A stretch of DNA of 64,000 nucleotides, taken from the NCBI GenBank assembly GCA_016789455.1, contig JAEUQU010000002.1, positions 1,116,001-1,180,000 of the forward strand. The letters are read 5' to 3'. Below, piece by piece: positions 12,915 to 63,911 of the stretch. The DNA is from Candidatus Saccharibacteria bacterium. Its GTDB lineage: Bacteria > Patescibacteriota > Saccharimonadia > Saccharimonadales > Saccharimonadaceae. Under the pieces are notes generated by a model. The model saw only the letters and a program-made list of their open reading frames with translations, made no database searches and was not told the origin of the DNA. Each line of letters opens with the position of its first letter. The stretch's first letter is position 1. The translations under genes were made by a program, and so were the position numbers.

Positions 12915-12929
12915 GCAAGGGGGATCATC

Positions 12930-13433: not shown

Positions 13434-13445
13434 GGGAAGTGTCCG

Positions 13446-14513: not shown

Positions 14514-14531
14514 CGGAGAGGGGAGTGATCC

Positions 14532-38412: not shown

Positions 38413-38454
38413 ATGTTTGTAGGGTTGACCTGGCAGTATTGTATCATTAAGGGA

Positions 38455-39864: not shown

Positions 39865-40225
39865 TTACATTCAAGCCTTCATCAAACAGCATGGCTACGG
39901 CCCCAGCTATCGCGAGATTATGCGGGCGCTGGAATATAGTTCCGTCTCGACCGTGGCGGTGCATGTGGACGGCCTGGTTGCCGCAGGCAGGTTACGCAAG
40001 AAGGGCCGCTCGGCCCGTTCTCTGGAGGTGGTAGGGAAGGGCGAACCGACCGTTGCCTTGGTGCTGACCGAGGATGAGGCCTGGCTGGTAAAGCGCCTGG
40101 AGGAATACCTGGCAGACATCAAAGCCAGTGACGCGACGCTGCAGAGTATGTTGGAGACGTTTACGGCGTTGGAGTTGCCGCTGGCGAAGGCGGCGGTCGA
40201 GCGGCATATAGATACTTTGAGTTAA
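39788..40225 (+). CDS. LexA-type winged-helix DNA-binding protein without protease domain
   Basis: 145 residues from the ATG at 39788 (a second ATG at 39797 is equally possible). Residues ~15-80 match the LexA N-terminal domain: TKAQHALLDYIQAFIKQHGYGPSYREIMRALEY, then SSVSTVAVHVDGLVAAGRLRKKG, the helix-turn-helix and wing. The C-terminal half is a helical segment without the Ala-Gly cleavage site or Ser/Lys dyad of LexA, so it is not a self-cleaving repressor. It overlaps the ligase gene by about 75 bases in another frame. A regulatory role is likely; target sites are unknown. Confidence 0.7.
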   Translation: MERMSEAPAAHNPAKRPTKAQHALLDYIQAFIKQHGYGPSYREIMRALEYSSVSTVAVHVDGLVAAGRLRKKGRSARSLEVVGKGEPTVALVLTEDEAWLVKRLEEYLADIKASDATLQSMLETFTALELPLAKAAVERHIDTLS

Positions 40226-41199: not shown

Positions 41200-41274
41200 T
41201 CCGGCGTAGCTCAGTGGTAGAGCGGGGCGCTGTTAACGCCTAGGTCACTGGTTCGAGCCCAGTCGCCGGAGCCA
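41200..41274 (+). tRNA. tRNA-Asn (GTT)
   Basis: A full cloverleaf can be drawn. The acceptor TCCGGCG (41200-41206) pairs with CGCCGGA (41264-41270), the D-arm is GCTC...GAGC, and the anticodon arm GGGCG-CTGTTAA-CGCCT has anticodon GTT. The T-arm is ACTGG-TTCGAGC-CCAGT. The discriminator base is G and CCA is encoded. It is the only RNA gene recognised in the window, and the A+T-rich accessory region starts right after it. A partial duplicate of its 3' end lies at 41424-41490. Confidence 0.95.
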
Positions 41275-47036: not shown

Positions 47037-48296
47037 TTCTCCGTTAAAAATCTTCAACTTTGTATTAATACCGCCAGCGAATATGATCCTTTCACTTTCT
47101 GTTCCGCTCGTAAGTATATATCGTGAGTATTCAATCAATGGGTTGTCTAGTTTTTGATCAATTTTGTAGTGTCCTAGCAAAGTCTTCGTTACATAGTAGT
47201 GCTTGTCTACTTTGGCCCGTAATTTCTCAGATATCTCTATCTTATGATAATGTTCTTCAATAAAAGCTTGAAGTAACTCACACAGTTTCGTTTCGCTGAC
47301 ATATTTTTCCTTGCAATCAGGGTCTTTTCGACGCGTGCAGTTGTAATAAACGAATCTCTTGGTATCCCCGCTTTTCAGAATCTTGAACTTGTCCTGCGCT
47401 GTGATATCGGCATTACATTGGCCACATTTCAACATTCCCCTGAAGGCAAATGTCTTTGATCCCCATACACCCTTATTAACACCTCTCGTTTCTTGCACTA
47501 GGTCAAATAACTCTTTGGAAATCAGCGGCTTATGAGCACCCGTGTACCACGGTGCATCCGGCGCCTGCGGATACTGGAATCTACCGTAGTAGAAGGGTGT
47601 GCTGAGAATAACAAGTATCTGACTGACACTGATAGGTTTACCGGATCGGTTGGTGAAACCCTGTTCATCCAGCCAGGCTTTGAGCCTTCGGCCGCTCCAG
47701 CGTTCGTAACCGGCTTTGTGAAACGCTTCCTTGATAAGCTCTGAACGCTCCGGATCGAGAATAATATCGTTTATACCGCCGAAAGCCCGGTTCATATAGC
47801 CAAGCGGCGCTACGCCGGGCCGCCAGCCCATCTCACATTTGGTTTTTATACCGCGTTTGACATTAATACTCTTGTTGTCATTCTCAAGTTTCGCCTGAGA
47901 GCACAGAATCATCAGCAGGAATTTCTCATTCGGATTATTCGTGAACGTCTGCGAGTATGTTCGAATATGCAGGAGCTTACCCTGATCCATGAGATCGACA
48001 ACCGCACCAAGATCACCGGCGTTGCGGGAAAGGCGGTCCGGCGCCCAAGTCAGGATCGCATTATATTCACCATTTGCTAAACCGGCGAGCATTCTGTTGT
48101 AAACCGGCCGTTTGCCTGAATCTTTGGCCGAATAGCTCTCCTGAAGTTCGCAAACCACATTCAGCCCATCGTTCTCGGCCAAGGCCCGCATTTCGGCGAG
48201 CTGCGAGTCAATTGACATCGCCTGTCGCTCGTCCGACTCGCTCGATTTACGGGCGTACAGGCAGTATTTTAGATCTGTTATTGCTTTGTCCAGCAT
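46986..48296 (-). CDS. large serine recombinase
   Basis: 436 residues from the ATG at 48296 (a GTG at 48305 is possible). The resolvase domain has the catalytic Ser in YARKSSESDERQAMSIDSQ, followed by LTWAPDRLSRNAGDLG. The recombinase domain (GVAPLGYMN, LKAWLDEQGFTNRSGKPIS) and a zinc-ribbon domain (LKCGQCN, YYNCTRRKDPDCKEKY) follow, then a coiled-coil-like end. These enzymes integrate or excise phages and mobile elements at short att sites without a tyrosine mechanism. Its C-terminus reaches into the copper ATPase gene on the other strand. It suggests that this stretch arrived as, or with, a mobile element. Confidence 0.92.
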   Translation of the reverse strand: MLDKAITDLKYCLYARKSSESDERQAMSIDSQLAEMRALAENDGLNVVCELQESYSAKDSGKRPVYNRMLAGLANGEYNAILTWAPDRLSRNAGDLGAVVDLMDQGKLLHIRTYSQTFTNNPNEKFLLMILCSQAKLENDNKSINVKRGIKTKCEMGWRPGVAPLGYMNRAFGGINDIILDPERSELIKEAFHKAGYERWSGRRLKAWLDEQGFTNRSGKPISVSQILVILSTPFYYGRFQYPQAPDAPWYTGAHKPLISKELFDLVQETRGVNKGVWGSKTFAFRGMLKCGQCNADITAQDKFKILKSGDTKRFVYYNCTRRKDPDCKEKYVSETKLCELLQAFIEEHYHKIEISEKLRAKVDKHYYVTKTLLGHYKIDQKLDNPLIEYSRYILTSGTESERIIFAGGINTKLKIFNGELGFYQSQVSSSQKLSV

Positions 48297-48332
48297 GGCA
48301 AGCACAACAGTACCGCCACGGTCCTGGGAAGT

Positions 48333-49635: not shown

Positions 49636-51177
49636 TTAATCCCACGCCCCGGAAGTGGCTTCCTCCCAGTCATCCAGACGGCGCGACCAGTAGTCGCGGC
49701 CGCTGCGGGACGACCGCCCGCGCCGGAACGGGTTCGGTCCGCTGAATAGCTCCTCCCATGTGCCGATTCGTACCGTACCGCCACGTCGGTCATCACGAAT
49801 AAACTCCAGAACAGCTGTCGTCAGCGCGTCCACTAGGTCATCGTGTTTTTCGACGCCAAAGTGTACCAGCTGTGTAATCAGCTGTTCGGCACCTTTTCTG
49901 GGGAACAGAATCGTACCGCGCTGGATTCTGTCGGCGATCATATTAAGACGTGAACGCTTGTCGGAATGCGGCGTCACGCCCGCGACATCCAGACCGTCGG
50001 CTGTCAGCTGCTGGACAACCGCAGCCTGATAGGCTGTCTGCTCAATATACAGCCTGGGGTATCGGTAAAAATCGCTCATTGCTTTGAGCTGCTCCACTGT
50101 AGCAGGGAACGACATGCGTTTATTGACGATATTAGGCTGAATATACATACGCTGATTCTCACCGCTACCACGGATATATATCACCAGTATGGCTGTAAAA
50201 TCGGCTTTATCATTCTCGGATATTGCCAGGTCGACACCTATAATGATCCGGCTGTACTGACCGCGCAGCAGTTCCGGCAGCTCATCATAGTAGTGAATCA
50301 TGTCATGCGAAATGATCTGATCATCATCTGTCACCAGATTTAGCATGTACTCACGCTCCCAGGCGATTCGACTGGCCACACTACGTTCCATTTTCTTAAC
50401 CGCCGCCATGTCCGGAAACTTACCCGGCCACGTACTCACGCCGTTCCTGACTATCGGCCATTCTGTGAAGGTACCATCAATTTCATTACGCTGAATCAGC
50501 GACATCAGGCGCATCAGCAGTGAATCCTCATGGAGCAGATTGCCGACCACGATTCGCTTTGTGTAGGTATCACCGGCGGGAATTATCTCACCCGTGTACC
50601 AGTCAAAGGTTTTCTGACGTCCCTCCCTGGTTTTAACTGACTGTACGTCTTCGACGTCATCCGAAATGATGAGATCCGGTCGTTTGGCACCGTGACGGAT
50701 TCCGCGGACGCTCTGCTCGGTGGATATGGCTGTTATACGGGCATTATATTTCGGTATATATAAAGACGTCGAACCCCATTCCTCGCGCTGTTCTGTGAAC
50801 GGCCCGAGGTCATTAGCCAGCAATTCATTACTTTCCAGCTCACGCTTGATATTAGTCAGGTGGACTCGGGCCTGATACTGCGTCTGGCTGGCAATGACTA
50901 CAAACTTTTTCTGCTGTCGGCCGACAATCGCCCAGATGGGATAGGACATGGTAATGATGGTCGACTTGGCGGAACCGCGGAACGCCATCACCACCGCCAG
51001 CGGCGTCTCATCCTGTTCGGTAATGGAGAACAGCTCCCGGTGCAGGTCGGATATCTCATATTCCATGTAGTTCGAGAAGTATGTGGCAAAGAAGTAGAGG
51101 TGACTGTTTGCCGTCACCTCCGTCCTTACCTGACGGTCTGTATATAGCCGTTCCAGCAGATCTTTATTCAGCATCAT
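49636..51177 (-). CDS. terL: phage terminase large subunit
   Basis: 513 residues. The N-terminal ATPase domain has a Walker A-like VMAFRGSAKSTIITM (near 62) and a Walker B LIISDDVED region (near 170). The C-terminal nuclease part has IIGVDLAISENDKADFTA (near 320), YIEQTAYQAAVV and HDDLVDALTTA, the acidic residues of the RNase H-like TerL nuclease. It packages DNA into procapsids, but no portal, capsid or tail genes are present in this window. It overlaps the small subunit gene by 14 bases and shares its ribosome-binding site GAGGAAAAGG. Confidence 0.9.
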   Translation of the reverse strand: MMLNKDLLERLYTDRQVRTEVTANSHLYFFATYFSNYMEYEISDLHRELFSITEQDETPLAVVMAFRGSAKSTIITMSYPIWAIVGRQQKKFVVIASQTQYQARVHLTNIKRELESNELLANDLGPFTEQREEWGSTSLYIPKYNARITAISTEQSVRGIRHGAKRPDLIISDDVEDVQSVKTREGRQKTFDWYTGEIIPAGDTYTKRIVVGNLLHEDSLLMRLMSLIQRNEIDGTFTEWPIVRNGVSTWPGKFPDMAAVKKMERSVASRIAWEREYMLNLVTDDDQIISHDMIHYYDELPELLRGQYSRIIIGVDLAISENDKADFTAILVIYIRGSGENQRMYIQPNIVNKRMSFPATVEQLKAMSDFYRYPRLYIEQTAYQAAVVQQLTADGLDVAGVTPHSDKRSRLNMIADRIQRGTILFPRKGAEQLITQLVHFGVEKHDDLVDALTTAVLEFIRDDRRGGTVRIGTWEELFSGPNPFRRGRSSRSGRDYWSRRLDDWEEATSGAWD

Positions 51178-51577
51178 CCTTTTCCTCGGGCAGCTGACTG
51201 ATACCTGCCAGCTGCAGGGCTTTGCCGACCAGTTCTACCTGGTCGGGTGTCAGCTCCTGCTGTACAGCCTGAATGCGTGCGTCAACTTCCAGCCGGTTGC
51301 GGTAGCGGTGATGGTGATGCTTCAGCCAGAAAGTTATTGCAGACATATTCTGGTCTTTGATGGCGTTTATGAGCTGCGACTCGGCAAGGTCATTAATTCT
51401 GCCGATACTCAGCTCTATTGTTTCATCACAGGCATCGGCAAATGATTCATCCTCCTTGCGCCAGCGATAGTACGTGGACCGCGGCAGCCCGACATGTTTA
51501 CAGGCCGCCTCCACAATGGGTGTTTTCGCCAGCTGCGTCAGTAGGAGCTGCTTGTCTTTATCCTGGTTGCGACTCAT
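51164..51577 (-). CDS. terS: phage terminase small subunit-like protein
   Basis: 137 residues. The N-terminal half holds a helix-turn-helix of the homeodomain/phBC6A51 type (KTPIVEAACKHVGLPRSTYYRWRKEDESF). The middle has an NAIKDQNMSAITFWLKHHHHRYRNR segment typical of phage small terminases, and the C-terminus is helical. It would recognise the packaging site and load the large subunit. It overlaps the DNA-methylase gene by four bases (ATGA) and terL by 14, so the three are one transcription unit. Confidence 0.78.
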   Translation of the reverse strand: MSRNQDKDKQLLLTQLAKTPIVEAACKHVGLPRSTYYRWRKEDESFADACDETIELSIGRINDLAESQLINAIKDQNMSAITFWLKHHHHRYRNRLEVDARIQAVQQELTPDQVELVGKALQLAGISQLPEEKDDAE

Positions 51578-52908
51578 AGCTTCACCCGCTTCTGACCGGT
51601 CAGGTTCTCCCAGCGCTTTAGTGCCACCTCCGCATATATAGGAGATTTTTCCATGATGTAGCAGCGACGCTTGAGCTTAGTGGCGGCAATTAGAGTTGAT
51701 CCTGATCCGCAGAACGGCTCAACGATAAGGTCACCGCGTTTTGTAAGCACTTTGATGTAAGGGATTAGTATCTCAATCGGTTTAGTGCCGAAGACGACAC
51801 CTTGGCCGGAATGCTTTTCATCACTGGCCTGAAATTCTATGAAGTCCGTCGGCTGGTATTTCTTGCCCCCTTTGTAGCCCTCCCACTGCGGTTTGCCACT
51901 GATGGCGTAAAGTGCTGTTTCATACTCCTCCTGTAGCCCGTCCGATTCAGGGTCATGATTATAGGGCACGGTACCGGTACCGCCGACTACAGCGATGTCA
52001 TGTTTGCTGAAGAACTTATACTTAGCACTGAAGCCCTGATGACGATTCGGAAGGTGCCAGACAATCATGTTTTTGACCTTCCAGTACTTTTCCATTTCGC
52101 CCCATATGACTCTGAGGTTCTTCCAGTTTTCGTATACGATTATCGAGTAGTCCGGCTCGGCATAGCGGGCGACATTGGCCATCCACTTCTCGGTAAAGTC
52201 CGGCGGCAGTACGTCAGTCTCCAGGTATCGACGGTTTTTCTTGGCACCGAAGCCGGTGGTCGGCTTACCGCCACGCTTGGCATGCAGATAATCAAGAATA
52301 TAGGGCGGGTCAGTCAGGCACATGTCAGCCTGTTCGCCGTTCATCAGCTTATCGAAGTCCTCGGCAACAGTGCTGTCGCCGCACATCAGTCGTGAGTCGC
52401 CCAGCTGGTAGACGTCACCTTTCTGAACGGTTTTCTTCTTGATACCCAGCTTCTGCAGCTCTTTTTCCAGGTCGAAGTTCTCCGGCTCATCAGTTGCCAT
52501 ATCAAAGATTTCATCGAGCTCCTCACTGTCGAAGCCCACGTCTGCAAGGAGTGCTTCGTCAAACTCGGCCAGCAACTCGTAGTCCCAGTCGCCGAGATTT
52601 CTGTTAAGGCGCAGGTTCAGTTCTTTCTCTTTGGCTTCATCCGGAATACTGATATAAACGACCGGCACTTCCTTATAGCCGAGATCCCTGGCTACCTTCA
52701 ACCGAAAGTGACCACCTATGACTATGTTACGACGCTCGTTCGCGCCGTTGACAAGTATCGGGTCGACCAGGCCGAACTGTTTGATGCTTGCTGTAAGTCC
52801 GGCAATGGCCTCCTCACCCCACTTGCGCGGATTATAGGCAGCGGCTTTGAGACTGGATACTTTGACCAGCTCTACATTAAGTTTATTATCTGGGGTTGAA
52901 GTACTCAT
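51574..52908 (-). CDS. ParB-domain / DNA methyltransferase fusion
   Basis: 444 residues from the ATG at 52908, chosen because GGAGGAAGTC precedes it. Residues ~10-105 form a ParB-like nuclease/CTPase-type domain with YNPRKWGEEAIAGLTASI and IVIGGHFRLKVARDLGY. A linker rich in Glu/Asp follows. The methylase part has CLTDPPYIL (motif IV, near 195) and EPFCGSGSTLIAATKLKRRC (motif I, near 405), the beta-class order of N4-cytosine/N6-adenine methylases. Phages commonly encode such orphan fusions to protect their DNA. It is the first gene of the minus-strand terminase unit. Confidence 0.88.
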   Translation of the reverse strand: MSTSTPDNKLNVELVKVSSLKAAAYNPRKWGEEAIAGLTASIKQFGLVDPILVNGANERRNIVIGGHFRLKVARDLGYKEVPVVYISIPDEAKEKELNLRLNRNLGDWDYELLAEFDEALLADVGFDSEELDEIFDMATDEPENFDLEKELQKLGIKKKTVQKGDVYQLGDSRLMCGDSTVAEDFDKLMNGEQADMCLTDPPYILDYLHAKRGGKPTTGFGAKKNRRYLETDVLPPDFTEKWMANVARYAEPDYSIIVYENWKNLRVIWGEMEKYWKVKNMIVWHLPNRHQGFSAKYKFFSKHDIAVVGGTGTVPYNHDPESDGLQEEYETALYAISGKPQWEGYKGGKKYQPTDFIEFQASDEKHSGQGVVFGTKPIEILIPYIKVLTKRGDLIVEPFCGSGSTLIAATKLKRRCYIMEKSPIYAEVALKRWENLTGQKRVKL

Positions 52909-52969
52909 GACTTCCTCCTTTGTAGTTATTTGGTAATAACCACAAACCCTTCGTGTTTTCGGCAATCAA

Positions 52970-53278: not shown

Positions 53279-54784
53279 ATGACAAATACTATTGACTCCG
53301 GCTTTGATATTGCAGCGCCCCGACCAGAGGCGCTTATACAGTCGCTGCGCGCTTTTGGCTATGATCTCTCAACTGCCATTGCTGACATAGTTGATAACAG
53401 TATCTCTGCATCAGCGAAGAATATTGCGATTGATTTTTTCTGGAATGGTGAAGATTCATATATTTCCATACAGGATGACGGCTGCGGAATGTCTGAGGAA
53501 GAGCTCATTAATGCCATGCGTCCCGGCAGCCGAAGCCCGCTTGAAGAACGCAGCCCGAAAGACCTAGGTAGATTCGGGCTGGGCTTAAAGACCGCGTCAT
53601 TCTCGCAATGCAAAAAACTGACCGTAGCCTCAAAAACTAATGATGGCAATTTTGCAGTACGCTGCTGGGATCTGGACTATGTTACCGAACATGGCGAATG
53701 GAGGTTGCTGAGGAGTGCTTCTACTACTATGCAGCATCTTATAGATAAAGCTCCAGACACTCCATCCGGCACAATTGTTTTACTGGAAAATCTGGACAGG
53801 CTTACTAAAGATACAAAGGTGGATAGCCGGCACGATCATGATAAATTCTTGGAGGATGCAGAGAAAGTGAAAAATCATCTGGCTATGGTATTTCACCGTT
53901 ATCTAGAGCGCATCAATGGACCTAAATTTACAGTCAACTCACGTCCGGTGAAACCATGGGATCCTTTTTTGACATCCGAACCCGCTACACAAAACCTGAC
54001 AGAAGAAGCACACCATATCTTAGGCGGTAAGCTTGTAGTTAAACCGTATGTTCTGCCCCATGTATCAAAAATCAGCCAAGAGGTACACTCCCGGGCCGCT
54101 GGCCCAAAAGGCTGGAATGCGCAGCAGGGATTTTACGTTTATCGGAATTCCCGCCTGCTGGTGGCAGGAGAATGGCTGGGTCTCGGTTTTCAAAAAGAAG
54201 AACACTATAAGTTGGCAAGGATATTACTAGATATACCGAATTCAATGGATGAGCACTGGGAAATTGATGTCAAGAAATCAAGAGCATACCCGCCCGTTGC
54301 GTTACGTCGCGAACTGAAACGTCTGGCTGAGGTTACCAGACAAAGAGCTGCTGACGTATATAGACATAGAGGAAAAATCATTGCCCGTCAGCATGCTGGT
54401 AAATTTTCTTATACCTGGGATAGGAAAATCACGCACGGCAAGATATCCTATAAAATCAATCGTGAACATCCCTTTATCAAATCGTTACTCGATCGGCAGG
54501 ATGTCAGTAAAGAAGTTAGCAACCTCCTCAAGTTGATTGAGGAAACTGTGCCCGTACCAACCATTATGGTTGATAACGCCGAGAGCCCGGGCAAGCAGGC
54601 CCAGCCCTTTGAGCAGGCAGCCGAAGGTGAAGTAAAACGGCTGGCCACGGACATATACCGGATTCTCCTGATTGAACGTACCGAAAGCGAAGCCATTGAA
54701 GCGATTCAGACAATGGAGCCGTTTAACCAGTACACGGATGACCTGGTGCCATATTTGAAGGGACTTGAAAGGAGCGCAGTGTGA
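53279..54784 (+). CDS. MORC/MutL-type GHKL ATPase of a restriction-like defence system
   Basis: 501 residues. The GHKL ATP-binding site is complete: N-box AIADIVDNSISASA (near 35), G1 QDDGCGMSEEE (near 65), G2 LGRFGLGLKTAS (near 97). SGTIVLLENLDRL follows, and then a second domain with EIDVKKSRAYPP, where the Lys resembles the MutL/MORC transducer residue. It is close to the bacterial MORC-like proteins linked to Z1 proteins. Nucleotide-driven dimer closure would clamp DNA. First gene of a tightly overlapping operon: its stop overlaps the next start (GTGA). It probably acts as the ATP-dependent DNA clamp or sensor of the system. Confidence 0.87.
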   Translation: MTNTIDSGFDIAAPRPEALIQSLRAFGYDLSTAIADIVDNSISASAKNIAIDFFWNGEDSYISIQDDGCGMSEEELINAMRPGSRSPLEERSPKDLGRFGLGLKTASFSQCKKLTVASKTNDGNFAVRCWDLDYVTEHGEWRLLRSASTTMQHLIDKAPDTPSGTIVLLENLDRLTKDTKVDSRHDHDKFLEDAEKVKNHLAMVFHRYLERINGPKFTVNSRPVKPWDPFLTSEPATQNLTEEAHHILGGKLVVKPYVLPHVSKISQEVHSRAAGPKGWNAQQGFYVYRNSRLLVAGEWLGLGFQKEEHYKLARILLDIPNSMDEHWEIDVKKSRAYPPVALRRELKRLAEVTRQRAADVYRHRGKIIARQHAGKFSYTWDRKITHGKISYKINREHPFIKSLLDRQDVSKEVSNLLKLIEETVPVPTIMVDNAESPGKQAQPFEQAAEGEVKRLATDIYRILLIERTESEAIEAIQTMEPFNQYTDDLVPYLKGLERSAV

Positions 54785-57549
54785 ATACCGATTACAAGAA
54801 TAAAGTTTCAGGCATGGTTTTTACGCTTCTTGAAGCCGAGAAAAATCCTACCGTCGAATTAATACGTCGTAAGATTGAGGATGTAATAAAGATTTTTCCT
54901 GAAACTGAAGCTACCCAAATTGATGTTAGCCAGCTGGCTAGGGAAATTGAGTCAAAAATCTCAATCTATGTCGATGACGCAACTTCCCTGGTCAAAAATG
55001 AAGGACATCAGGAATGGTTACCGGAACAGCGTGCCAAAATAAACTGGAGGTTCTGGAACCGTTATCGAAAGTACCTTGAAAGATCGGTAGGTCTGCCCCC
55101 GGCAGTAACTAACGGGCTGGACAAAATGACTGACAGGGTTTTAGAGAGACTGGAGGTTCCTGAAAGAGACGGATCATGGGATACTCGCGGTATGGTGGTT
55201 GGACGTGTCCAGTCAGGGAAAACTGGTAATTACATAGGTCTCATCTCGAAAGCCATTGACTCCGGATACAAAGTTATCGTTATCCTTACAGGTATGCACG
55301 ATAGCCTTCGCGCCCAAACTCAACTCCGCGTTGACGAGGGAATACTCGGTTTTGACACTCAGAAAAGCCGGAGTTTCCAAAACAATAATGAGCGTATTGG
55401 AGTTGGTAAACTGCCGGATGAGCCACTTCTGACCGTACATTCACTGACAAGTAGCGAGAATAAAGGCGACTTCAAAAAAAGCTTCGCGATGCAGGCCTCA
55501 GCCATGTTTGGCGGTGAACCGGTAATACTTGTTGTGAAGAAGAACAAAAGCGTACTCAGCAATCTACTGCAGTGGGCAGTCAGTGTTCGTGGCATTGAAG
55601 ACCCATCCAATGGCAGAAAAATCATTCCTAACATTCCGTTACTGCTGATTGACGATGAAGCAGATAATGCATCTGTAAATACTAAGAAAATCCCTGTTGA
55701 TGAAGACGGCAAGCCTATGGAAGATTATGATGTTACTGCTATCAACGGCAAGATTAGGGAAATTCTGAGCACATTCACTAAAAGTGCGTACGTTGCCTAC
55801 ACCGCAACTCCTTTCGCCAACATTTTTATATCCGGTGACAACAAAACTGACACACACGGGAAGGATCTCTTTCCTGAAAATTTCATCGTTAATCTGGCAC
55901 CGCCATCCAGCTATATAGGCCCTTCTCAGATATTTGGAACTGATGGTAACCCGGACCTGGGGATCAGCGCATCACCCCGTCTTCCGCTTTACAGAGAAGT
56001 GGATGATTGGGAGGCTGCATTCCCACTGGGTCATAAGAAGGATCATGATCCTGAAGAGTTGCCAGAAACACTCAAGCACGCGATCCGTGCATTCATACTT
56101 GTCTGCGCTGCCCGTCGGGCAGGTGGCCAGGCAACCGACCATAACTCAATGCTTGTTCACGTCACAAGATTCAATAATGTGCAGGCCAAGGTAGCCGAGC
56201 TGGTCGAAGATGAGCTGCGGTACATCCGCCGGCGGCTGGAAATGGGAGATGGCGGTGCTTCTACTTCAGTACTTGATGAGCTTGAAGAGTTGTGGAATGA
56301 CGATTTCGAGCACACAACTGCAAAAATGAACGATTACGAACATGCGGATATTGGGTGGCCTGAAGTCAGAGATGCGTTGTTTGAAGCGAGCTCAAAGATC
56401 ACTATTAAAATCATGAACGGCCAGGCAAAAGACGCCTTAGATTATGCTGATCACCGCGATCAGGGACTCAGCGTGATAGCCATTGGTGGCGACAAGCTTT
56501 CGCGTGGACTGACCCTGGAAGGGTTGTCGGTAAGTTATTATCTGCGCTCTACAAAAATGTATGACACCCTTATGCAGATGGGTAGATGGTTCGGATACCG
56601 CCCCGGCTACTTGCATTTGTGCCGGCTTTATACAACGAGTGAACTGCTGTCATGGTATGAACACATAACTCTGGCGAGCGATGAACTTCTGGCTGACTTT
56701 GATCGTATGGCAGAGACCGGTGGAACACCAAGTGACTATGGTCTCAAGGTCCGCACCGATCCGGGAAAGAAACTGATCGTGACAGCATTGAACAAGATGC
56801 GCTCCGGTGTAGAAGTACCTATCTCCTACAGCGAGGAGCTGGTAGAGCTTGTTTACTATGCCAGAGAAGAAAGAGTGCACCAAGCAAACTTCACTTTCAC
56901 GGATGAGTTTATAAAAGGACTTGGCGAATATGAAAAACGTGGCAAAAGCAGCTTCATGTGGCGGGACGTAACCGGCAAGAAAGTCATCGGTTTTCTGAAC
57001 GGTCTGGTAACACATCCTCTCGCCGTGAAAGCAGCCGGCGCCTCGAAATACATCAGTGACATGACCAGAAAAGGCGAGCTCACAGACTGGACGGTACTGC
57101 TTGTCTCAAATGCCAAGCCAGAAAACCGGACAGTTCTGGGTGGTCTTGATATCGGCCTGACAGATCGTCGGAATGATGACAAGAATTCAAATCCAAATGT
57201 ATACATAATAAATAGAAGTCATATTATCAGTCCTGGCGATGAGTATGAGGATCTGGACTCAGAGGAGCGTGGTCGTGCCTTAAGTCTGACTCGTGAAGAT
57301 TGGGCTGATCCGAACCGTCGTCGGCGCAGCGCGGCGCCACCGGAAAAACCAACCGGCAGGTTTGCAAGACGAGTGCGCAACCCGCGTAATGGAATGCTGA
57401 TCCTGTACACTCTGAACCCAAAGCTGATCGGCGAAGAGCTCAGAACACCTGTTGTAGGTTACGCGATCAGTTTCCCGCAAAGCCCGACGGCCGTAAAAAC
57501 GAACTACATGTTAAACGAAGTAGCGATGGGTAAAGACGAGGATGAATAG
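54781..57549 (+). CDS. Z1-domain superfamily II helicase-like ATPase/endonuclease
   Basis: 922 residues from a GTG at 54781 with GGAG 7-8 bases upstream. Helicase-type motifs occur in order: Walker A VVGRVQSGKTGNY (near 140), motif II LLIDDEADNASVN (near 290), motif III-like AYTATPFANIF (near 340), and the Z1 domain with IGGDKLSRGLTLEGLSVSY and MQMGRWFGYRPGYLHLCRL (near 560-620). It is the only enzyme with this pair of motifs I know of in such operons, and it is always described as a putative endonuclease or translocase. The charged C-terminus may contact partners. It is the core motor candidate of the system. Confidence 0.9.
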   Translation: MNTDYKNKVSGMVFTLLEAEKNPTVELIRRKIEDVIKIFPETEATQIDVSQLAREIESKISIYVDDATSLVKNEGHQEWLPEQRAKINWRFWNRYRKYLERSVGLPPAVTNGLDKMTDRVLERLEVPERDGSWDTRGMVVGRVQSGKTGNYIGLISKAIDSGYKVIVILTGMHDSLRAQTQLRVDEGILGFDTQKSRSFQNNNERIGVGKLPDEPLLTVHSLTSSENKGDFKKSFAMQASAMFGGEPVILVVKKNKSVLSNLLQWAVSVRGIEDPSNGRKIIPNIPLLLIDDEADNASVNTKKIPVDEDGKPMEDYDVTAINGKIREILSTFTKSAYVAYTATPFANIFISGDNKTDTHGKDLFPENFIVNLAPPSSYIGPSQIFGTDGNPDLGISASPRLPLYREVDDWEAAFPLGHKKDHDPEELPETLKHAIRAFILVCAARRAGGQATDHNSMLVHVTRFNNVQAKVAELVEDELRYIRRRLEMGDGGASTSVLDELEELWNDDFEHTTAKMNDYEHADIGWPEVRDALFEASSKITIKIMNGQAKDALDYADHRDQGLSVIAIGGDKLSRGLTLEGLSVSYYLRSTKMYDTLMQMGRWFGYRPGYLHLCRLYTTSELLSWYEHITLASDELLADFDRMAETGGTPSDYGLKVRTDPGKKLIVTALNKMRSGVEVPISYSEELVELVYYAREERVHQANFTFTDEFIKGLGEYEKRGKSSFMWRDVTGKKVIGFLNGLVTHPLAVKAAGASKYISDMTRKGELTDWTVLLVSNAKPENRTVLGGLDIGLTDRRNDDKNSNPNVYIINRSHIISPGDEYEDLDSEERGRALSLTREDWADPNRRRRSAAPPEKPTGRFARRVRNPRNGMLILYTLNPKLIGEELRTPVVGYAISFPQSPTAVKTNYMLNEVAMGKDEDE

Positions 57550-58555
57550 GAGCTTCGCGGATATATGGACAGAGATAGAGCAGGAAGCTGCGAACAGCCG
57601 TAAGCCGCATTTTCTGGTAAGGCGAGTAATCCCGGAAAGCAGCTTGGACGCGTTTATTGGAACTGAGTTTCCGGGAGGTCGCAGAGTATTTGCGCTGGAG
57701 GTCAGTCTGCAGGCTATGGATAAACTGGAAGATCTGCCTGCATTCAAAGGACTAGAGATCAGTAAGCGTGAATCAGTCGCAAACCAAAAAGATAAAGCCG
57801 CCTTACTGATCACCCTAAAGGCTACCAGATTCGCTGATGTCTTCGCTATTCTCATTGAGGATCTGGCAGCTGAACTTCATCCTATCAAGGACGAAAACGA
57901 TGCATTGGAAATAATGATTACTCGGCTTATTAAATGGCAGCAGCTGATAGAATCTGGTGGTCACGAAGGTCTGTCAGAAGATGCTGCACGCGGCCTCTAC
58001 GGTGAACTCTATATTTTAGCCACCCATTTACTGCCGACACAGGGAACAAGGGCAGTATTCGGCTGGAAAGGATTTAGCGCCGAGCAGCAGGATTACTACT
58101 TTGGTCGCGATGCTATAGAAGTAAAAACAACTAAAGCCAAGCAGCATCAGAAATTAACTATTGCCAGCGAGCGACAACTGGATGAAGGCACCTTTAACCG
58201 CCTGTTTCTTTATCATCTGTCGGTTGCCGAACTGCCAGGCAATGAGAATACGCTGCCGAAGGTTGTGGAATTTATACGTAAAAAAGCCCGAGAGGACGGC
58301 AGGGCTTTGAATTATTTCGAAGACGCTCTTTTCCAGGCAGGTTACCTAGATGCACAAAGCGGGCTTTATGAAATGGCTGGTTATGAAATCCGTGAAGAAA
58401 ACCTTTTTCTAGTTACTGATAAATTTCCACGAATACTTGAGAAAGAGCTCCGGTCTGGAGTTGGGGATGTAACTTACTCTATCAATGTGGCCGAGTGCAA
58501 GCATCACGTAGTTGGATTATCCGAATTTGCAACACTGGAGCCGGGCGATGAATAG
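57542..58555 (+). CDS. PD-(D/E)XK motif protein (DUF4420-like)
   Basis: 337 residues. The nuclease-like core is in the middle: GLYGELYILATHL (with the conserved Glu, near 155) and YYFGRDAIEVKTTKAKQHQ, giving an Asp and Glu-x-Lys near 195-205, the pattern of PD-(D/E)XK enzymes in this defence family. The first ~120 residues and last ~100 residues are of unknown fold. It overlaps the Z1 gene by 8 bases (ATGAATAG) and is itself overlapped by the AIPR gene in the same way. It is likely the DNA-cutting subunit, although the active residues are only inferred by position. Confidence 0.78.
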   Translation: MNRSFADIWTEIEQEAANSRKPHFLVRRVIPESSLDAFIGTEFPGGRRVFALEVSLQAMDKLEDLPAFKGLEISKRESVANQKDKAALLITLKATRFADVFAILIEDLAAELHPIKDENDALEIMITRLIKWQQLIESGGHEGLSEDAARGLYGELYILATHLLPTQGTRAVFGWKGFSAEQQDYYFGRDAIEVKTTKAKQHQKLTIASERQLDEGTFNRLFLYHLSVAELPGNENTLPKVVEFIRKKAREDGRALNYFEDALFQAGYLDAQSGLYEMAGYEIREENLFLVTDKFPRILEKELRSGVGDVTYSINVAECKHHVVGLSEFATLEPGDE

Positions 58556-60614
58556 TGTTAAAAGTCTGGAAGATTTCAGCCAGGATATTCACCAGCAGGT
58601 AATTGCCACTGCAGATATCGAAGGTGAGGAGGCATTCCGGGAAGATAAGTTCACTGAGCTGATGATAGAATATCTCACTGATGCCGGCGAGGTTGATGAT
58701 GGTATCGTCTGTTCTTACCGGGCCAAGGGCCTACAGGTAAACGGATACAGCCTAAGTGAGGACGAAGAGGTATTTGATATATTCATCAGTAAGTATACCT
58801 CTGTTACACCACCCGAAACAGTCGCATCAGCAGATGTGGTTGCCGGCTTCAAGCGCGGCCTTAACTTTGTTGATAAAGCACTGACAGGACTTTACGAATC
58901 ACTTGAGGAAGCTTCACCGGTTTTTGACTTGGCACAACGGATTTACGATGTCAGGAAGTCCGTCACAAAAGTGCGGCTGATGTATCTGACCGATGGACTT
59001 GTCAAAGATGTTAAGCACAAAGACACTGAGTTGAATGGCGTCATAGTTTCTTACCATCTATGGGATATTGAGCGTCTCTATAAAGTCTGGACTTCGGGTA
59101 AAAAGCGGGAGACGATAGAGATTGACTTTGAGCAGCGCTTCGGCCACGCAATTCCGTGTTTGAAAATGCCTAAAGGCAACCCTGATTACACCACCTACCT
59201 GGCAATATTTCCGGCAAGTGTTCTGGTTGATCTGTACGGGGAATATGGCACACGCTTATTGGAAAGAAATGTCCGTTCGTTTCTACAGGCAAGAGGCCAG
59301 GTCAATTCGGGTATTCGACGAACTATTTTAGAAGAACCGTACATGTTTCTTGCTTATAACAATGGAATAGCCGGTACATCTGAAATGATTCAGATTTTAG
59401 AGCAGTCCGATGGCGGGCTGGCGATAAAGAGCTTGCGTGACTTCCAGATTGTAAACGGTGCTCAGACTACAGCCTCGCTCTACCATGCAACCAAAAAGGA
59501 CAAAGCAGATGTCTCTGAAGTATTCGTACAGGTAAAACTGACTGTTATTGACGATCTGGGCAAAATGGATGACTTTGTGCCACTTATCTCTCAATATTCA
59601 AACAGCCAGAACAAAGTTCAGACAGCTGATTTTTCAGCTAACGATCCGTTTCACCGTGAGATTGAGGAGCTTTCACGCACCATCTGGGCTCCGGCGCAAC
59701 AGGGCACACAACGTCAGACTCGCTGGTATTATGAGCGCGCACGTGGTCAGTACACTGACGATAAAAACCGCGAAGGTACGCCTGCTCGTAAAAAAGCATT
59801 CGAGCTGGTCAACCCCAATTCTCAGAAATTTACCAAAACTGACCTTGCAAAGTTTGAGAACACCTGGGATCAGTTGCCATATCTCGTAAGCCGAGGTGCG
59901 CAGAAAAACTTCCGGGAATTCACTATACGACTCAAAGATCGGCATGGTCGTTCGCCTAATCAGACTTATTTCCAGCGCCTTGCTGCGAAAGCACTGATGT
60001 TCAGGGCAGCTGAAAAGATAGTTCAGGCGCGTAAATACGGTGGCTATCGTGCCAATATTGTTACGTACACATTGGCGCTCATTTCACATCTTTCTGCTCA
60101 GCGTCTCGACCTTGATAGTATTTGGAAGAACCAGATGCTTTCGCCGGCGCTTCGTGATGCCATTGACAGTATTTCAGAAGTTGTTTTTGATCATATCGTA
60201 AATGCTCCTGGTAATGCTAACGTTACAGAATGGTGTAAAAAAGAAGAGTGCTGGAAGCAGTTAAAAAATAAGGGGATTGTGCTACCGTCGGCGCTGAGCG
60301 CTGAGCTTCTGACTGCCAACCACAAAGTTGAGGATGTTGCGTCAGGCAAGGGCGAATGGGAAGAAACCGAGGCTGATGGCGTTGACACCGCTGCAGTTAC
60401 GGGCGTAGGCGCTGATGTCTGGTTCCAGTTATCGTCATGGGCGAAGGAAACAGACAACCTACAGCCTTGGCAGCGCGGTATTGCCTACTCAGTGGGCCAA
60501 TTACTCGCCCGAGGACGGAAGCCATCACGCAAACAAACCCAACATAGTGTTAAAATACTTGAGGAAGCAAAGCGCTTAGGCTTTAATACACAAGATGCAA
60601 ATAAGAGTTACTGA
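58548..60614 (+). CDS. AIPR (abortive infection phage resistance) family protein
   Basis: 688 residues from the ATG at 58548, which overlaps the previous stop by 8 bases; a longer frame begins inside the previous gene. AIPR landmarks are present: an N-terminal FREDKFTELMIEYLTDAGE, FLQARGQVNSGIRRTI, YMFLAYNNGIAGTSEM and DFQIVNGAQTTASLYHA (near 305), then NSQNKVQTADFSANDPFHREI. The family is tied to phage resistance and to Z1 and MORC neighbours, but its biochemical activity is not established by the sequence. It overlaps the methyltransferase gene by 20 bases, so it is fully coupled. Confidence 0.88.
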   Translation: MNSVKSLEDFSQDIHQQVIATADIEGEEAFREDKFTELMIEYLTDAGEVDDGIVCSYRAKGLQVNGYSLSEDEEVFDIFISKYTSVTPPETVASADVVAGFKRGLNFVDKALTGLYESLEEASPVFDLAQRIYDVRKSVTKVRLMYLTDGLVKDVKHKDTELNGVIVSYHLWDIERLYKVWTSGKKRETIEIDFEQRFGHAIPCLKMPKGNPDYTTYLAIFPASVLVDLYGEYGTRLLERNVRSFLQARGQVNSGIRRTILEEPYMFLAYNNGIAGTSEMIQILEQSDGGLAIKSLRDFQIVNGAQTTASLYHATKKDKADVSEVFVQVKLTVIDDLGKMDDFVPLISQYSNSQNKVQTADFSANDPFHREIEELSRTIWAPAQQGTQRQTRWYYERARGQYTDDKNREGTPARKKAFELVNPNSQKFTKTDLAKFENTWDQLPYLVSRGAQKNFREFTIRLKDRHGRSPNQTYFQRLAAKALMFRAAEKIVQARKYGGYRANIVTYTLALISHLSAQRLDLDSIWKNQMLSPALRDAIDSISEVVFDHIVNAPGNANVTEWCKKEECWKQLKNKGIVLPSALSAELLTANHKVEDVASGKGEWEETEADGVDTAAVTGVGADVWFQLSSWAKETDNLQPWQRGIAYSVGQLLARGRKPSRKQTQHSVKILEEAKRLGFNTQDANKSY

Positions 60615-62280
60615 TGATATCCCTGTTATAGATTTGTTCGCCGGCCCCGGTGGGTTGAGTGAAGGCTTCGCTTCCTTCACCCCCTCAGGCACGACCGGCA
60701 ATCCCTTCAATATAACCGCCTCTGTTGAAATGGATGCATGGGCGCATCAGACCCTTGAACTTCGGAGCTTCTTTCACGAGTTTCATGGTAACGCTCCGGA
60801 CGAGTACTATCAGTATCTGCGACAGGAGATCACAAAAGATGAGCTATTCGATCTCTACCCGATACAGGCAGCGGCTGCTAAAAAGCGCGCAATACTGGCA
60901 GAGCTCGGCAATAAAGAACACGACGTCCTTATTACCCAGCGACTGAACCAGGTCTTCGAAGATAATCCGGATAAACCGTGGGTGCTGATCGGTGGACCAC
61001 CTTGCCAGGCTTATTCGGTCATTGGCCGGTCCCGCCGCCAAGCAAACGGTGCGGGCCTGCAGAAACAGGAGGAGGATAATCGAAACTTCCTGTATCTGGA
61101 ATACCTGAAGATCATTGCCAACTATAAACCTGCTGTTTTCGTGATGGAAAACGTAAAAGGCATGCTGTCTGCGAGAGTTAACGGTAAACAGATTTTTCAT
61201 GAGATACTGAAAGATCTTCGCCACCCCAAAGATGCACTGGAAGATTCCAATGTTCCGGGCTATAAGCATAACGGGCTGGAATATAAGATTTATTCTCTGG
61301 TTGTATCAAAAGACGATGGCTCAGAGCTCAAACCGACCGATTACATCATTCAATCTGAAAACTATGGCGTGGGCCAGATGCGTCACCGTGTAATACTCCT
61401 CGGAATTCGCAGTGATATTGATGTTAAACCACGAACCCTCACGCCACGAGAAGATAAAGTTACTGTAGAAAGTCTGCTTGCCGATCTGCCTAAGCTCAGA
61501 AGCTCATTTACTCGTCCGGCAGGCGGTGCCGAGGAATGGTACGATTTCCTGGCGGACATAAATAAACAGGAATGGTACAAACAGTATAAACCGGCTGTTG
61601 AGAACGGTAGCCCCGTAGATGCGAAAGCCCTCAAAGTAAAAATGGATGAGTGTTTGAAAGCGATTCGCAGCGACCTCAGTACCGGCAGTGAGTTTGCGGA
61701 GGCGGATGTGAAGTCGGCATACAGGTCCGACTGGTTCAATGACCCGAAAATCGGAGGTGTCGTTAACCATATTGCGCGGGGACACATGAAGGAAGACCTG
61801 TACCGGTATTTCTTCGCTGCTGCTTATACCAGTGCATTCGGAAGGTCACCACGCATGAAGGACTTTCCTACGCAGTTATTGCCGAAGCATAAGAATGTGG
61901 GTAGATCACTCGATAAAGGTGCATTCGATGACAGATTCCGGGTCCAGCAGACTGATCGACCAGCGACTACCATCACATGCCATATATCCAAAGATGGCCA
62001 CTACAATATTCACTACGATGCATCTCAATGTCGCAGTTTGACCGTGCGCGAAGCCGCACGACTTCAATCATTCCCTGATAACTATTACTTCGTCGGCCCG
62101 CGCACACAGCAGTACCACCAGGTGGGAAACGCCGTTCCGCCACTGCTGGCCTCACAAATCGCGGACATAGTTTACGATGTCGTCAGTCAAGTACCACGAG
62201 TCATAAGTCGGCAGGAAACACTCCAGGAAATTGATATGTCACCGGCCAGATCATCCGAATTAAAAGTTGCTAAAGTTTAA
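60595..62280 (+). CDS. C5-cytosine DNA methyltransferase
   Basis: 561 residues with all the main motifs: I DLFAGPGGLSEGF, IV GGPPCQAYSVIGR with the catalytic Cys (near residue 138), VI FVMENVKGML, VIII VGQMRHRVILLGI, IX-X ARLQSFPDNYYF and YHQVGNAVPP. The variable region between VIII and IX (about 290-450) is the target recognition domain and does not reveal the site. It marks host DNA so that the linked nucleases spare it. Last gene of the plus-strand operon; it converges with the Mrr-type nuclease, the stops overlapping by four bases. The Vsr gene beyond fits C5-methylation. Confidence 0.95.
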   Translation: MQIRVTDDIPVIDLFAGPGGLSEGFASFTPSGTTGNPFNITASVEMDAWAHQTLELRSFFHEFHGNAPDEYYQYLRQEITKDELFDLYPIQAAAAKKRAILAELGNKEHDVLITQRLNQVFEDNPDKPWVLIGGPPCQAYSVIGRSRRQANGAGLQKQEEDNRNFLYLEYLKIIANYKPAVFVMENVKGMLSARVNGKQIFHEILKDLRHPKDALEDSNVPGYKHNGLEYKIYSLVVSKDDGSELKPTDYIIQSENYGVGQMRHRVILLGIRSDIDVKPRTLTPREDKVTVESLLADLPKLRSSFTRPAGGAEEWYDFLADINKQEWYKQYKPAVENGSPVDAKALKVKMDECLKAIRSDLSTGSEFAEADVKSAYRSDWFNDPKIGGVVNHIARGHMKEDLYRYFFAAAYTSAFGRSPRMKDFPTQLLPKHKNVGRSLDKGAFDDRFRVQQTDRPATTITCHISKDGHYNIHYDASQCRSLTVREAARLQSFPDNYYFVGPRTQQYHQVGNAVPPLLASQIADIVYDVVSQVPRVISRQETLQEIDMSPARSSELKVAKV

Positions 62281-63449
62281 TCTTCTTTTAGGCTCCGTAG
62301 CCATTTTTCTACAGATTTTGTATCATTATAGCCTGCACCCTCAAGTATCCTTACGATATCGCCTCCGGATATAATCACAACGGGGTGACCATCTTCAATG
62401 ATTTCCTTGTAGGCCTGGTCATTGACATAAGAAGTTGTAACAAGGAAGCCAACCTGCCTGTGTCTTAAGCGGGAGATCAATCTGGAAGTCTCCCTGACAC
62501 CGACTGAACTACGGATAGAGTAGCACTTGGCTTCAATAGCAAACTCTACTTTGATGGAATTATCCTCCAAGCCTATCTTATATTCACCGGTTGCGTCACG
62601 ACCACCATCTCTCGTTCTGCGCGTCAGGTCATAGCTTGCCACATTTTTATCCATTAATTTGACAAGTTCTGCGGCACATTTTTCAAAGCCGTAGCTGTCA
62701 TCAGTAAATGCTCCGTGTATTCTATTCAAAATTTCCAAACCAGCCGGCTCTTGAGGCAATTGCTCCTCTTTAGTACGGTTATCTACAGTTCTTTCGGCAG
62801 TTAGAGGTGGCGGCACCTTCTGACCCAGTCGCCATTTAAGCCAGTGCTTCGGCGCATTAACAGATTCTGTATTTTCATCGTGCAGATCCCTAATCCACTC
62901 ACGCGTTACAACCGGTTCATTCAGAACTGTAAAAATGGCACGATAGTTCTGGAAACGCTGGCCTTTTTTCATCTTCCACACCGCTACAAGATCTTCTGTG
63001 CTGGTTACGCCGGCCTTGCCCGGAATAAGCAGACCTCTGAAAATTACATCGCGTCCGTTGGCACCTTTTGTGAAGAGAAATACAGGAGGTATCTTTTCGT
63101 ACTGTTGCTGGTGCAGAGCGTCAAAAATATCGCGCAAGAACTGGTTGCCACCAAGAGCTGTGCCGTGCAGATCGGCACCAGCATTTTTATTATCGCCGTA
63201 GTAGGTCACCATGCCGTTGTAGTAATCTATCGAATCCGGCCAGTCCGGGTCACCTAGGGATGAGTAAAGTACCACAAATTTGTAGCCTTTTGCCGCGCTT
63301 CCTACCCGGCGAAAACCGCCGCGATTGCCGCAACCGAGCAATTCCGGCAGACAGTCAAATCCGCCAGCTGAACTTGCATCAGCTTTATAAACAGCATCAA
63401 CAATCAGCGGCGCATTTGGGATATCTGGTGATCTGAACTCTGTACTCAT
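62277..63449 (-). CDS. Mrr-type restriction endonuclease with probable AspBHI/MspJI-like N-terminus
   Basis: 390 residues. The C-terminal ~140 residues have the Mrr catalytic pattern: RTRDGGRDATGEYK (Asp in DGGRD), then FAIEAKCYSIRSSVGV with Glu-Ala-Lys, and SRLRHRQVGFLVTTSYVN. The N-terminal ~200 residues have ELLGCGNRGGFR, DWPDSIDYYNGMVTYYGDN and LGGNQFLRDIF, which resemble the DNA-binding domain of AspBHI/MspJI modification-dependent enzymes. A TATAAT (63467-63472, minus strand) lies 17 bases upstream of the ATG. It is transcribed against the methyltransferase. The N-terminal assignment is from memory of family motifs and needs a profile search. Confidence 0.72.
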   Translation of the reverse strand: MSTEFRSPDIPNAPLIVDAVYKADASSAGGFDCLPELLGCGNRGGFRRVGSAAKGYKFVVLYSSLGDPDWPDSIDYYNGMVTYYGDNKNAGADLHGTALGGNQFLRDIFDALHQQQYEKIPPVFLFTKGANGRDVIFRGLLIPGKAGVTSTEDLVAVWKMKKGQRFQNYRAIFTVLNEPVVTREWIRDLHDENTESVNAPKHWLKWRLGQKVPPPLTAERTVDNRTKEEQLPQEPAGLEILNRIHGAFTDDSYGFEKCAAELVKLMDKNVASYDLTRRTRDGGRDATGEYKIGLEDNSIKVEFAIEAKCYSIRSSVGVRETSRLISRLRHRQVGFLVTTSYVNDQAYKEIIEDGHPVVIISGGDIVRILEGAGYNDTKSVEKWLRSLKED

Positions 63450-63503
63450 AAAATTACTCTGATGTAATTATACCTGTGACAGATTAGATATTAGAATATA
63501 AGT

Positions 63504-63911
63504 ATGGACCGAATTACCAAAGAGCACCGTAGCTGGAACATGTCACGCATACGCGGTAAGGATACCGCACCTGAAATGCTGGTTCGTAAGTATTTGTATG
63601 CTCATGGCATCAGGTACCGGCTTCATGCAAAACTTCCAGGCAAACCGGATGTTGTAATACGGAAGAATAACTCAGTTCTGTTTATTAATGGCTGCTTCTG
63701 GCATGGCCATAACAACTGTAAATATGCAGTTACTCCAAAGTCCAATACTGACTTCTGGCAAAGTAAAATCAGCGGCAACGTAGAGAGAGATCAAAGGAAC
63801 CGCCAGCAGCTTGAGGCCGACGGCTGGAAAGTTTTAACAGTCTGGGAGTGTGAACTTGAAAAGGATCGCGACCGGACGCTGCAAAATATACTTAGTTTTA
63901 TGAAGGAGTAG
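63504..63911 (+). CDS. vsr: Vsr (very short patch repair) DNA mismatch endonuclease
   Basis: 135 residues, the standard length. The family signature is complete: RSWNMSRIRGKDTAPEMLVRK, YRLHAKLPGKPDVV with the PD of the active site, LFINGCFWHGHNNC (metal and structural residues), FWQSKISGNVERDQRN and VLTVWECEL. It nicks 5' of the T in T-G mismatches that arise when 5-methylcytosine deaminates, so it protects the sites of a C5 methyltransferase. This fits the gene 1.2 kb away. A TAGAAT -10 (63492-63497) ends 6 bases before the ATG, so the message may be leaderless. Confidence 0.95.
   Translation: MDRITKEHRSWNMSRIRGKDTAPEMLVRKYLYAHGIRYRLHAKLPGKPDVVIRKNNSVLFINGCFWHGHNNCKYAVTPKSNTDFWQSKISGNVERDQRNRQQLEADGWKVLTVWECELEKDRDRTLQNILSFMKE

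Follow-up and report, generated by a model that had tools for sequence, protein, structure and literature searches.

What does a 5-methylcytosine (5mC)-dependent restriction endonuclease do beside the only C5 cytosine methyltransferase of its own genome? This question is raised by a locus of a Candidatus Saccharibacteria bacterium (assembly GCA_016789455.1, contig JAEUQU010000002.1, positions 1,116,001 to 1,180,000), a stretch of 64,000 nucleotides that is referred to as the window throughout, in which seven genes at 53279-63911 were examined. Five of them form a plus-strand operon encoding homologues of MzaB, MzaC, MzaD and MzaE of the MZA anti-phage system together with a C5 methyltransferase. 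A minus-strand gene for an AspBHI-type endonuclease converges on this operon and meets it at its end, and next comes a gene, again on the plus strand, for a Vsr mismatch endonuclease. On balance, we lean towards reading the locus as an MZA-type restriction machine that arrived by horizontal transfer and to which a 5mC-dependent endonuclease is attached. The position of the cutter beside the methyltransferase is the most interesting point of the locus because AspBHI, its relative, is a 5mC-dependent endonuclease; this position, beside the one C5 methyltransferase that a search of the own genome found, implies that the two specificities are separated. The five-gene core is already known, and what is added here is a recurrent AspBHI-type partner and the occurrence of the core in this lineage.

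Each of the seven proteins has at least one Pfam match far over the cut-off, i.e., HATPase_c_3 in MzaB (115.6 bits), Z1 in MzaC (278), DUF4420 in MzaD (242), AIPR and AIPR_N in MzaE (348 and 153), DNA_methylase in the C5 methyltransferase (161), RE_AspBHI_N and Mrr_cat in the endonuclease (216 and 50), and Vsr in the last protein (95.5; NCBIfam vsr, with 139.5 bits, is also above its cut-off). The Z1, AIPR and DUF4420 families had been named in an earlier reading of the same letters made without database searches (the sequence-only reading), and profile hidden Markov models place all three far above the Pfam cut-offs; its family assignments as a whole are borne out by Pfam, NCBIfam and motifs. 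In MzaB, the GHKL N, G1 and G2 boxes are present, and the MORC motif GhXhhpXXRhl of the S5 domain reads GFYVYRNSRLL. MzaC carries GRVQSGKT (Walker A), DDEAD (a DEAD-like box), TATPF and DTLMQMGRWFG (DThhQXuRhFG). A scan of genome contigs with MzaC yielded at least 561 relatives, of which the best 80 were kept as loci (genes counted by phmmer at E ≤ 1e-3; some loci end at contig ends, and the same-genus Z1 gene L002 is left out of the set). Within these loci, the MORC motif is present in 75/75 MzaB relatives, while Walker A, the DEAD-like box and DThhQXuRhFG are found in 80/80, 79/80 and 80/80 MzaC relatives, respectively. Residues E155, D184, E193, K195 and Q212 of MzaD are invariant in all 36 aligned rows; a narrow ExK pattern, which matched 0/76 MzaD relatives, was too narrow and was discarded in favour of this alignment. 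A sequence search of solved structures returned no match for MzaC or MzaD, and a one-row match of MzaE to a designed repeat protein (55 residues, E 1e-4) was treated as chance.

The MzaB, MzaC, MzaD and MzaE homologues stand together and in order according to both NCBIfam and PADLOC, whose MZA models likewise match the window proteins. Because the NCBIfam scores are highly significant yet below the equivalog cut-offs (MzaB 483 vs. 850 bits, MzaC 814 vs. 1500, MzaD 130 vs. 420, MzaE 441 vs. 1050), the operon is, judged by sequence, a divergent MZA member or a close relative, and no equivalog by the NCBIfam standard. Among the 80 loci, MzaC occurs in 80, MzaD in 76, MzaB in 75 and MzaE in 74, with the B-C-D-E order kept across them; a relative of the window C5 methyltransferase is found in 65 and Vsr in 48, where two Vsr patterns fit 38/48 and 35/48. 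All seven frames of the window are open over the coordinates first proposed for them. With the starts as listed, neighbouring genes of the operon share 4, 8, 44 and 20 bp; ATG 58548 is the more likely start of MzaE, in preference to the listed TTG 58512, because GGAG lies upstream, and the third overlap is then 8 bp, not 44. With that start, the overlaps of 4-20 bases reported in the sequence-only reading hold (4, 8, 8 and 20 bp). The Mrr-type nuclease and Vsr that it counted in the set are indeed present, although neither is among the five overlapping genes and the former lies on the minus strand.

Operons of this type were predicted by Iyer et al. in 2008 (PMC2292703), and the link drawn to that work is right, as both MORC and Z1 motifs are found in the window. 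The third operon type in the passages available from that paper combines an SFII helicase bearing DThhQXuRhFG with an E-D-ExK nuclease, cytosine methylases and Vsr being frequent; MORC, the Z1 helicase, the nuclease, the cytosine methylase, Vsr and AIPR (figure legend) are shared with the window, whereas a methyl-dependent endonuclease is not mentioned in those passages. According to citing papers, Gao et al. (2020) described and tested the mzaABCDE anti-phage system. The window shares homologues of MzaB, C, D and E in the same order, but it differs from what is cited of that system in having no MzaA match, a C5 methyltransferase within the operon, scores below cut-off, and an attached AspBHI-type gene and Vsr. 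The nearest published description is a putative Type II system from 2022 (PMC9523054), which has a C5 methyltransferase in its core, along with a Z1 protein of approx. 925 amino acids, a PD-(D/E)XK protein, AIPR and an association with MORC. In its accessible part, that paper calls the system reminiscent of the validated mzaABCDE, reports approx. 20% identity to mzaBCDE and, unlike the window, mentions no AspBHI-type endonuclease. CglI and NgoAVII (PMC4267653) share a Z1-containing ATP-dependent motor and a separate methyltransferase, but, as far as the available excerpt goes, they have three genes and a separate R-protein with a phospholipase-D-type nuclease, and no MORC, DUF4420 or AIPR protein is described for them. 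None of the literature titles found concerns an AspBHI-MZA pairing, which may nevertheless have been published elsewhere.

The locus had also been called complete, which is correct only if the system can do without the sigma factor MzaA, since there is no MzaA match in the window. The MzaA model PDLC02203 has three matches in the own genome, all outside the window, and the best of these is a sigma-70-like frame beside a primase-like frame. As the model also matches 10/14 control genomes, a match to PDLC02203 alone says little about MZA. The C5 methyltransferase was ruled out as MzaA because the frames that the model matches are those of sigma factors, and the window gene is not among them. In the passages available from PMC9523054, MzaA accompanies only few of the related systems.

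The endonuclease matches the AspBHI chain 4oc8 over its full length (347 bits over 382 residues), with LpnPI (4rzl) and MspJI (4f0p) less close, and shares with these enzymes an SRA-like 5mC pocket and an Mrr-type nuclease. The residues that hold the flipped 5mC in AspBHI (W69, D71, Y82 and D85, as given in the accessible text of PMC4499157) and the nuclease D and ExK are kept in 11/11 rows aligned by eye, and the predicted dependence on 5mC is well supported. The specificity loops differ from those of AspBHI, and partly from those of LpnPI: the window protein has G-N-R for S41-R42-Q43 and A-D-L for R91-L92-L93, so its cut site is not predictable. Also in contrast to AspBHI, the window gene lies beside a C5 methyltransferase and MZA. 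The label of Mrr-type nuclease in the sequence-only reading thus caught the Mrr_cat domain but missed the relation to AspBHI. A pattern scan of IMG/VR confirmed no viral copy of the endonuclease, and the phage set contained one unverified faecal clone of 9 kb with a relative of it and without MZA genes.

A 5mC cutter should kill a cell in which it lies next to a C5 methyltransferase, unless the two enzymes act in different contexts. The window methyltransferase has kept the motifs PPCQ, ENV, QxRxR and GNxV. For AIPR/Z1 loci, a single measured mark was found, namely GCWGC, determined by bisulfite for the active C5 methyltransferase of Prevotella intermedia in the passages available from PMC5608340. 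If the window mark were GCWGC and the cutter recognised YS(5mC)NS, the site of AspBHI, 308/666 GCWGC strand-sites in the window would be targets; therefore, either at least one of the two specificities is unlike those of these known cases, or the enzyme is weak or under control. It should be noted that the core and the methyltransferase do not appear to share one history. As far as scores against one reference, a crude measure, can tell, the BLAST scores of MzaB, MzaD and MzaE track those of MzaC (Spearman 0.75, n=76; 0.71, n=77; 0.72, n=74), whereas no such relation is seen for the methyltransferase (-0.21, n=68, p = 0.09), with up to three same-phylum Z1 loci included in these sets. Thus, the core appears to move as one unit, while MZA operons seem to exchange their methyltransferase. 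Either the methyltransferase would then set the site of the machine, or many methyltransferases would have a site in common. Vsr, for its part, belongs with the methyltransferase, as the two are fused in a same-phylum locus that is MZA-like: in genome G348, one frame (L097, 2037-3680) comprises Vsr (residues 3-73) and a C5 methyltransferase domain (224-545) and directly precedes MzaB, MzaC and MzaD; the 16 kb retrieved there contain no match to MzaE.

Is the AspBHI-type gene found beside MZA elsewhere? Among 72,556 plasmid records of PLSDB, 20 contain a relative of the endonuclease (E ≤ 1e-5), 11 of them covering at least 80% of it. The ten relatives examined (H1-H10) have at least 95% coverage and 45-50% identity; H11 (82% covered, 27% identity) and the partial matches H12-H20 fall outside the ten, and none of H11-H20 is among the 29 plasmid records with MzaC (E ≤ 1e-50). 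Five of the ten lie beside a Z1 operon, in four lineages. In a Thalassospira marina plasmid, MzaB-C-D-E, the endonuclease and a C5 methyltransferase follow each other on one strand, and a Rhizobium leguminosarum plasmid has Vsr, a C5 methyltransferase, MzaB-C-D-E and then a convergent endonuclease. The same layout as in Rhizobium is found in Ensifer adhaerens (H7; H8 is a near copy, by coordinates only), whereas Priestia megaterium pMLY91_4 has Z1 and DUF4420 genes and a convergent endonuclease, with no match to MzaB or MzaE. In Thalassospira, Rhizobium and Ensifer, at most 4 bp separate the open frame of MzaE from that of the endonuclease. Four records are common to the 20 endonuclease and 29 MzaC plasmid records, for which the hypergeometric value is 1e-10, a value that ignores relatedness and the clustering of genes in islands. 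As controls for such clustering, 0/60 McrB-like plasmid records listed, of 82, and 0/31 Mrr-like records are among the 29; 4/20 vs. 0/60 (McrB-like, among 82) gives a Fisher p = 0.003, again ignoring relatedness. A second context that pairs an AspBHI-type enzyme with a C5 methyltransferase is seen on two Priestia plasmids (L105 and L111), where the endonuclease gene is followed by a small DNA-binding gene, a gene annotated dcm and a gene of the MutH/Sau3AI family.

From gene content, motifs, order and recurrence, which are observed, we infer the following course of events. The C5 methyltransferase, whose family is clear, is predicted to mark the cell's own DNA. MzaC may then move along unmarked foreign DNA at the expense of ATP, by analogy with the Z1 N-proteins of CglI, which, together with the R-protein, hydrolyse ATP at unmethylated sites and for which translocation has been suggested (PMC4267653, in its available part). 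MzaB would close on the DNA as a clamp and thereby license cutting, MzaD, with its complete E-D-ExK-Q site, would cut, and MzaE could help to recognise or hold the DNA. Judging from its family and recurrent linkage, the AspBHI-type enzyme would cut DNA carrying 5mC or 5-hydroxymethylcytosine in contexts not made by the resident methyltransferase, which would close an escape route of phages with modified cytosine. Vsr is established as acting in the repair of T:G mismatches at deaminated 5mC, and here it would serve the site of the methyltransferase. The combination suggests one two-gate defence, in which MZA would hit unmarked DNA and the endonuclease DNA with 5mC or hydroxymethylcytosine in other contexts; we hold such a coupling to be somewhat doubtful. 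It does make a demand on the endonuclease: because the methyltransferase is seemingly exchanged, the endonuclease would need a context that avoids the resident mark, and the two specificities would co-vary across cassettes.

A serious possibility is that the endonuclease is an independent passenger in a defence island and that the five-gene operon works alone as MZA. Several findings weigh in this direction or otherwise against a restriction machine with an attached cutter. Only 1/80 chromosomal MZA loci has an AspBHI-type gene (Pontibacter L037), and this gene is distant (RE_AspBHI_N 142 bits, 28% identity to the window endonuclease); the domain occurs in 3/78 whole MZA genomes, at MZA in one of the three. 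For the other five of the ten plasmids (two from Priestia, L105 and L111, and three from Rhodococcus), the 13-21 kb retrieved contain no MZA match, the island of the window holds further defence candidates, and clustering in islands at the genus level is only partly controlled in the plasmid comparison. Moreover, the endonuclease has a leucine at the position of LpnPI R98, the loss of which nearly inactivates LpnPI in the passages at hand, so it may be weakly active, and all four Mza models, highly significant as they are, stay under their equivalog cut-offs. On the other side stand the recurrence of the pairing in four plasmid lineages and the window, the close spacing to MzaE in three of them, and the lack of any record overlap for McrB-like (60 listed of 82) and Mrr-like genes, albeit in a small sample. 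We consider it very unlikely that the cassette mainly retains the island, i.e., that loss of the methyltransferase would expose the chromosome to MZA, as in selfish restriction-modification, with phage defence secondary. It would suit such a role that the stretch is low in GC, lies next to a tRNA and holds serine recombinase and terminase genes, and that related operons occur on plasmids, whereas a member of the family is described as a validated defence system in the passages available; the two roles are also compatible with each other.

It is also conceivable, though unlikely, that MZA acts by abortive infection, with MzaB, MzaC and MzaD sensing foreign DNA and MzaE stopping the cell as a toxin. 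AIPR is named for this activity, the AbiU model matches MzaE (84.5 bits), and, according to the available part of PMC3506569, a HEPN RNase toxin domain forms the N-terminus of AIPR proteins. In the structure model of MzaE (pLDDT, the predicted local distance difference test, 85.4 for the full model and 90.6 for the N-terminal domain alone), the N-terminal domain is alpha/beta. Its top VIA-align rows are FokI (Z 9.5; 158 aligned, 4.6 A) and AF1548 (9.2; of unknown function by title), followed by AspBHI (8.9) and MspJI (8.7); these Z-scores of 8.7-9.5, from which the fold is read, are little above the warning level of the tool. Foldseek alone matched neither AIPR model to any entry at E ≤ 0.001 (best E 0.015 for the N-terminal domain), and a ParB-like match of residues 222-390 (Z 6.2) was too weak to use. 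A conserved NGYxLSEDxxxLDLF is present, with D89 in 29/35 rows, but the aligned rows contain no D..ExK set in the N-terminal domain, which thus looks PD-(D/E)XK-like in the model without a recognisable catalytic set. An N-terminal HEPN RNase appears disfavoured because the modelled domain is alpha/beta with PD-(D/E)XK matches, not all-helical; the VIA lists contained no entry recognisable as HEPN, which excludes nothing. This argument covers the N-terminal domain, the C-terminal half being helical. A methyltransferase and a complete nuclease, MzaD, also fit DNA restriction. Under the restriction reading, which we favour, the model makes MzaE most likely a DNA-recognition or scaffold subunit and not the main nuclease.

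The description of the machine as little-characterised in the sequence-only reading agrees with the available literature passages as far as its mechanism goes, but MZA has already been named, is covered by NCBIfam and PADLOC models, and includes a member described as validated. Three of the present results give handles on this mechanism. That the core moves in step while the methyltransferase does not bears on what sets the site of the machine. A nuclease-like fold without the usual active site, modelled for the N-terminus of AIPR, speaks against the HEPN reading. Finally, there is a sharp prediction, namely that the linked endonuclease must spare the mark of the neighbouring methyltransferase.

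MZA is widespread among prokaryotes and rare in this lineage; here, a large restriction machine has been carried into a lineage of small genomes. The MzaC model matches 5/379 sampled genomes of the phylum, convincingly in 2/379 (the own genome with 814 bits and G348 with 378 bits; the other three reach 30-59 bits at best), and an RE_AspBHI_N-type domain is found in 1/379, the own genome. In an MzaC tree of 82 rows made by a quick method, the shortest paths from the window lead to three methanogens and one cyanobacterium; no close donor is claimed, as the window is on a long branch (0.85) and no starred set holds it. In a phage collection, eight faecal records named 'Bacteriophage sp.' (H51-H58, 4-29 kb) carry Z1 proteins that are MzaC-type or more distant.

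Table 1. Genes of the locus and of its left flank, in window coordinates.
Feature	Coordinates	Strand	Basis
MzaB, prokaryotic MORC-type GHKL ATPase, 501 aa	53279..54784	+	HATPase_c_3, NCBIfam MzaB, MORC motif, N/G1/G2 boxes
MzaC, SF2-type motor with Z1 domain, 922 aa	54781..57549	+	Pfam Z1, NCBIfam MzaC, motifs
MzaD, DUF4420 PD-(D/E)XK nuclease, 337 aa	57542..58555	+	Pfam DUF4420, invariant active-site residues
MzaE, AIPR protein	58548..60614 (listed start TTG 58512)	+	Pfam AIPR, AIPR_N, NCBIfam MzaE, fold model
C5 cytosine methyltransferase, 561 aa	60595..62280	+	Pfam DNA_methylase, motifs, own-genome search
AspBHI-type 5mC-dependent restriction endonuclease (predicted), 390 aa	62277..63449	-	RE_AspBHI_N, Mrr_cat, AspBHI chain 4oc8
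Vsr mismatch endonuclease, 135 aa	63504..63911	+	Pfam Vsr, NCBIfam vsr
tRNA-Asn near GC drop	41200..41274	+	ARAGORN
Large serine recombinase	46986..48305	-	Resolvase and Recombinase; phrog_95 integrase 206.5 bits
Terminase large subunit	49636..51177	-	phrog_38 267.5 bits
Terminase small subunit-like	51164..51577	-	phrog_4044 38.6 bits
ParB-N domain and N6/N4 DNA methylase, outside the system	51574..52965	-	Pfam; phrog_498 295 bits

The surroundings look like a mobile island with phage-derived genes (Table 1). The G+C content is 0.605 at 38001-40000, falls from approx. 0.60 to 0.42-0.51 at the tRNA-Asn, stays below 0.53 to approx. 74 kb (counted from the start of the window) and is mixed beyond. 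No copy of the last 12 to 40 bases of the tRNA-Asn, i.e., no attachment repeat, was found within approx. 60 kb to the right on either strand. The sequence-only reading had placed the system next to phage terminase genes in a genome of the candidate phyla radiation (CPR). Both terminase subunits are indeed found to the left, on the minus strand, by phrog matches, and the CPR label fits: the own genome has 1.44 Mb, genomes of the lineage have 0.5-1.6 Mb, and uL30 was matched in 0/21 of them (the own genome and 20 relatives) vs. 13/14 named controls. CPR bacteria are not known to have uL30.

Some further genes of the island and its right flank deserve mention. Beside the recombinase, a gene for 360 amino acids (window 48333-49415) matches the PADLOC candidate PDC-S11 weakly (64.6 bits), and NucS_C below the cut-off. 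A P-type ATPase gene (E1-E2_ATPase, window 45003-47036) lies in the low-GC stretch beside DUF305 and beta-propeller genes. To the right of the window, on the same contig (stretch L083), there is a Schlafen group 3 helicase (8326-10332; PDC-S41, 892 bits), which is a possible defence gene, and a Fic/DOC gene (15559-16110) that matches the PADLOC candidate PDC-S04 (303 bits). Between them, at 10472-14921, a gene for a DabA inorganic-carbon transporter, unexpected in a small genome, is followed by a proton-antiporter-type membrane gene, which, by position, we take to be DabB-like.

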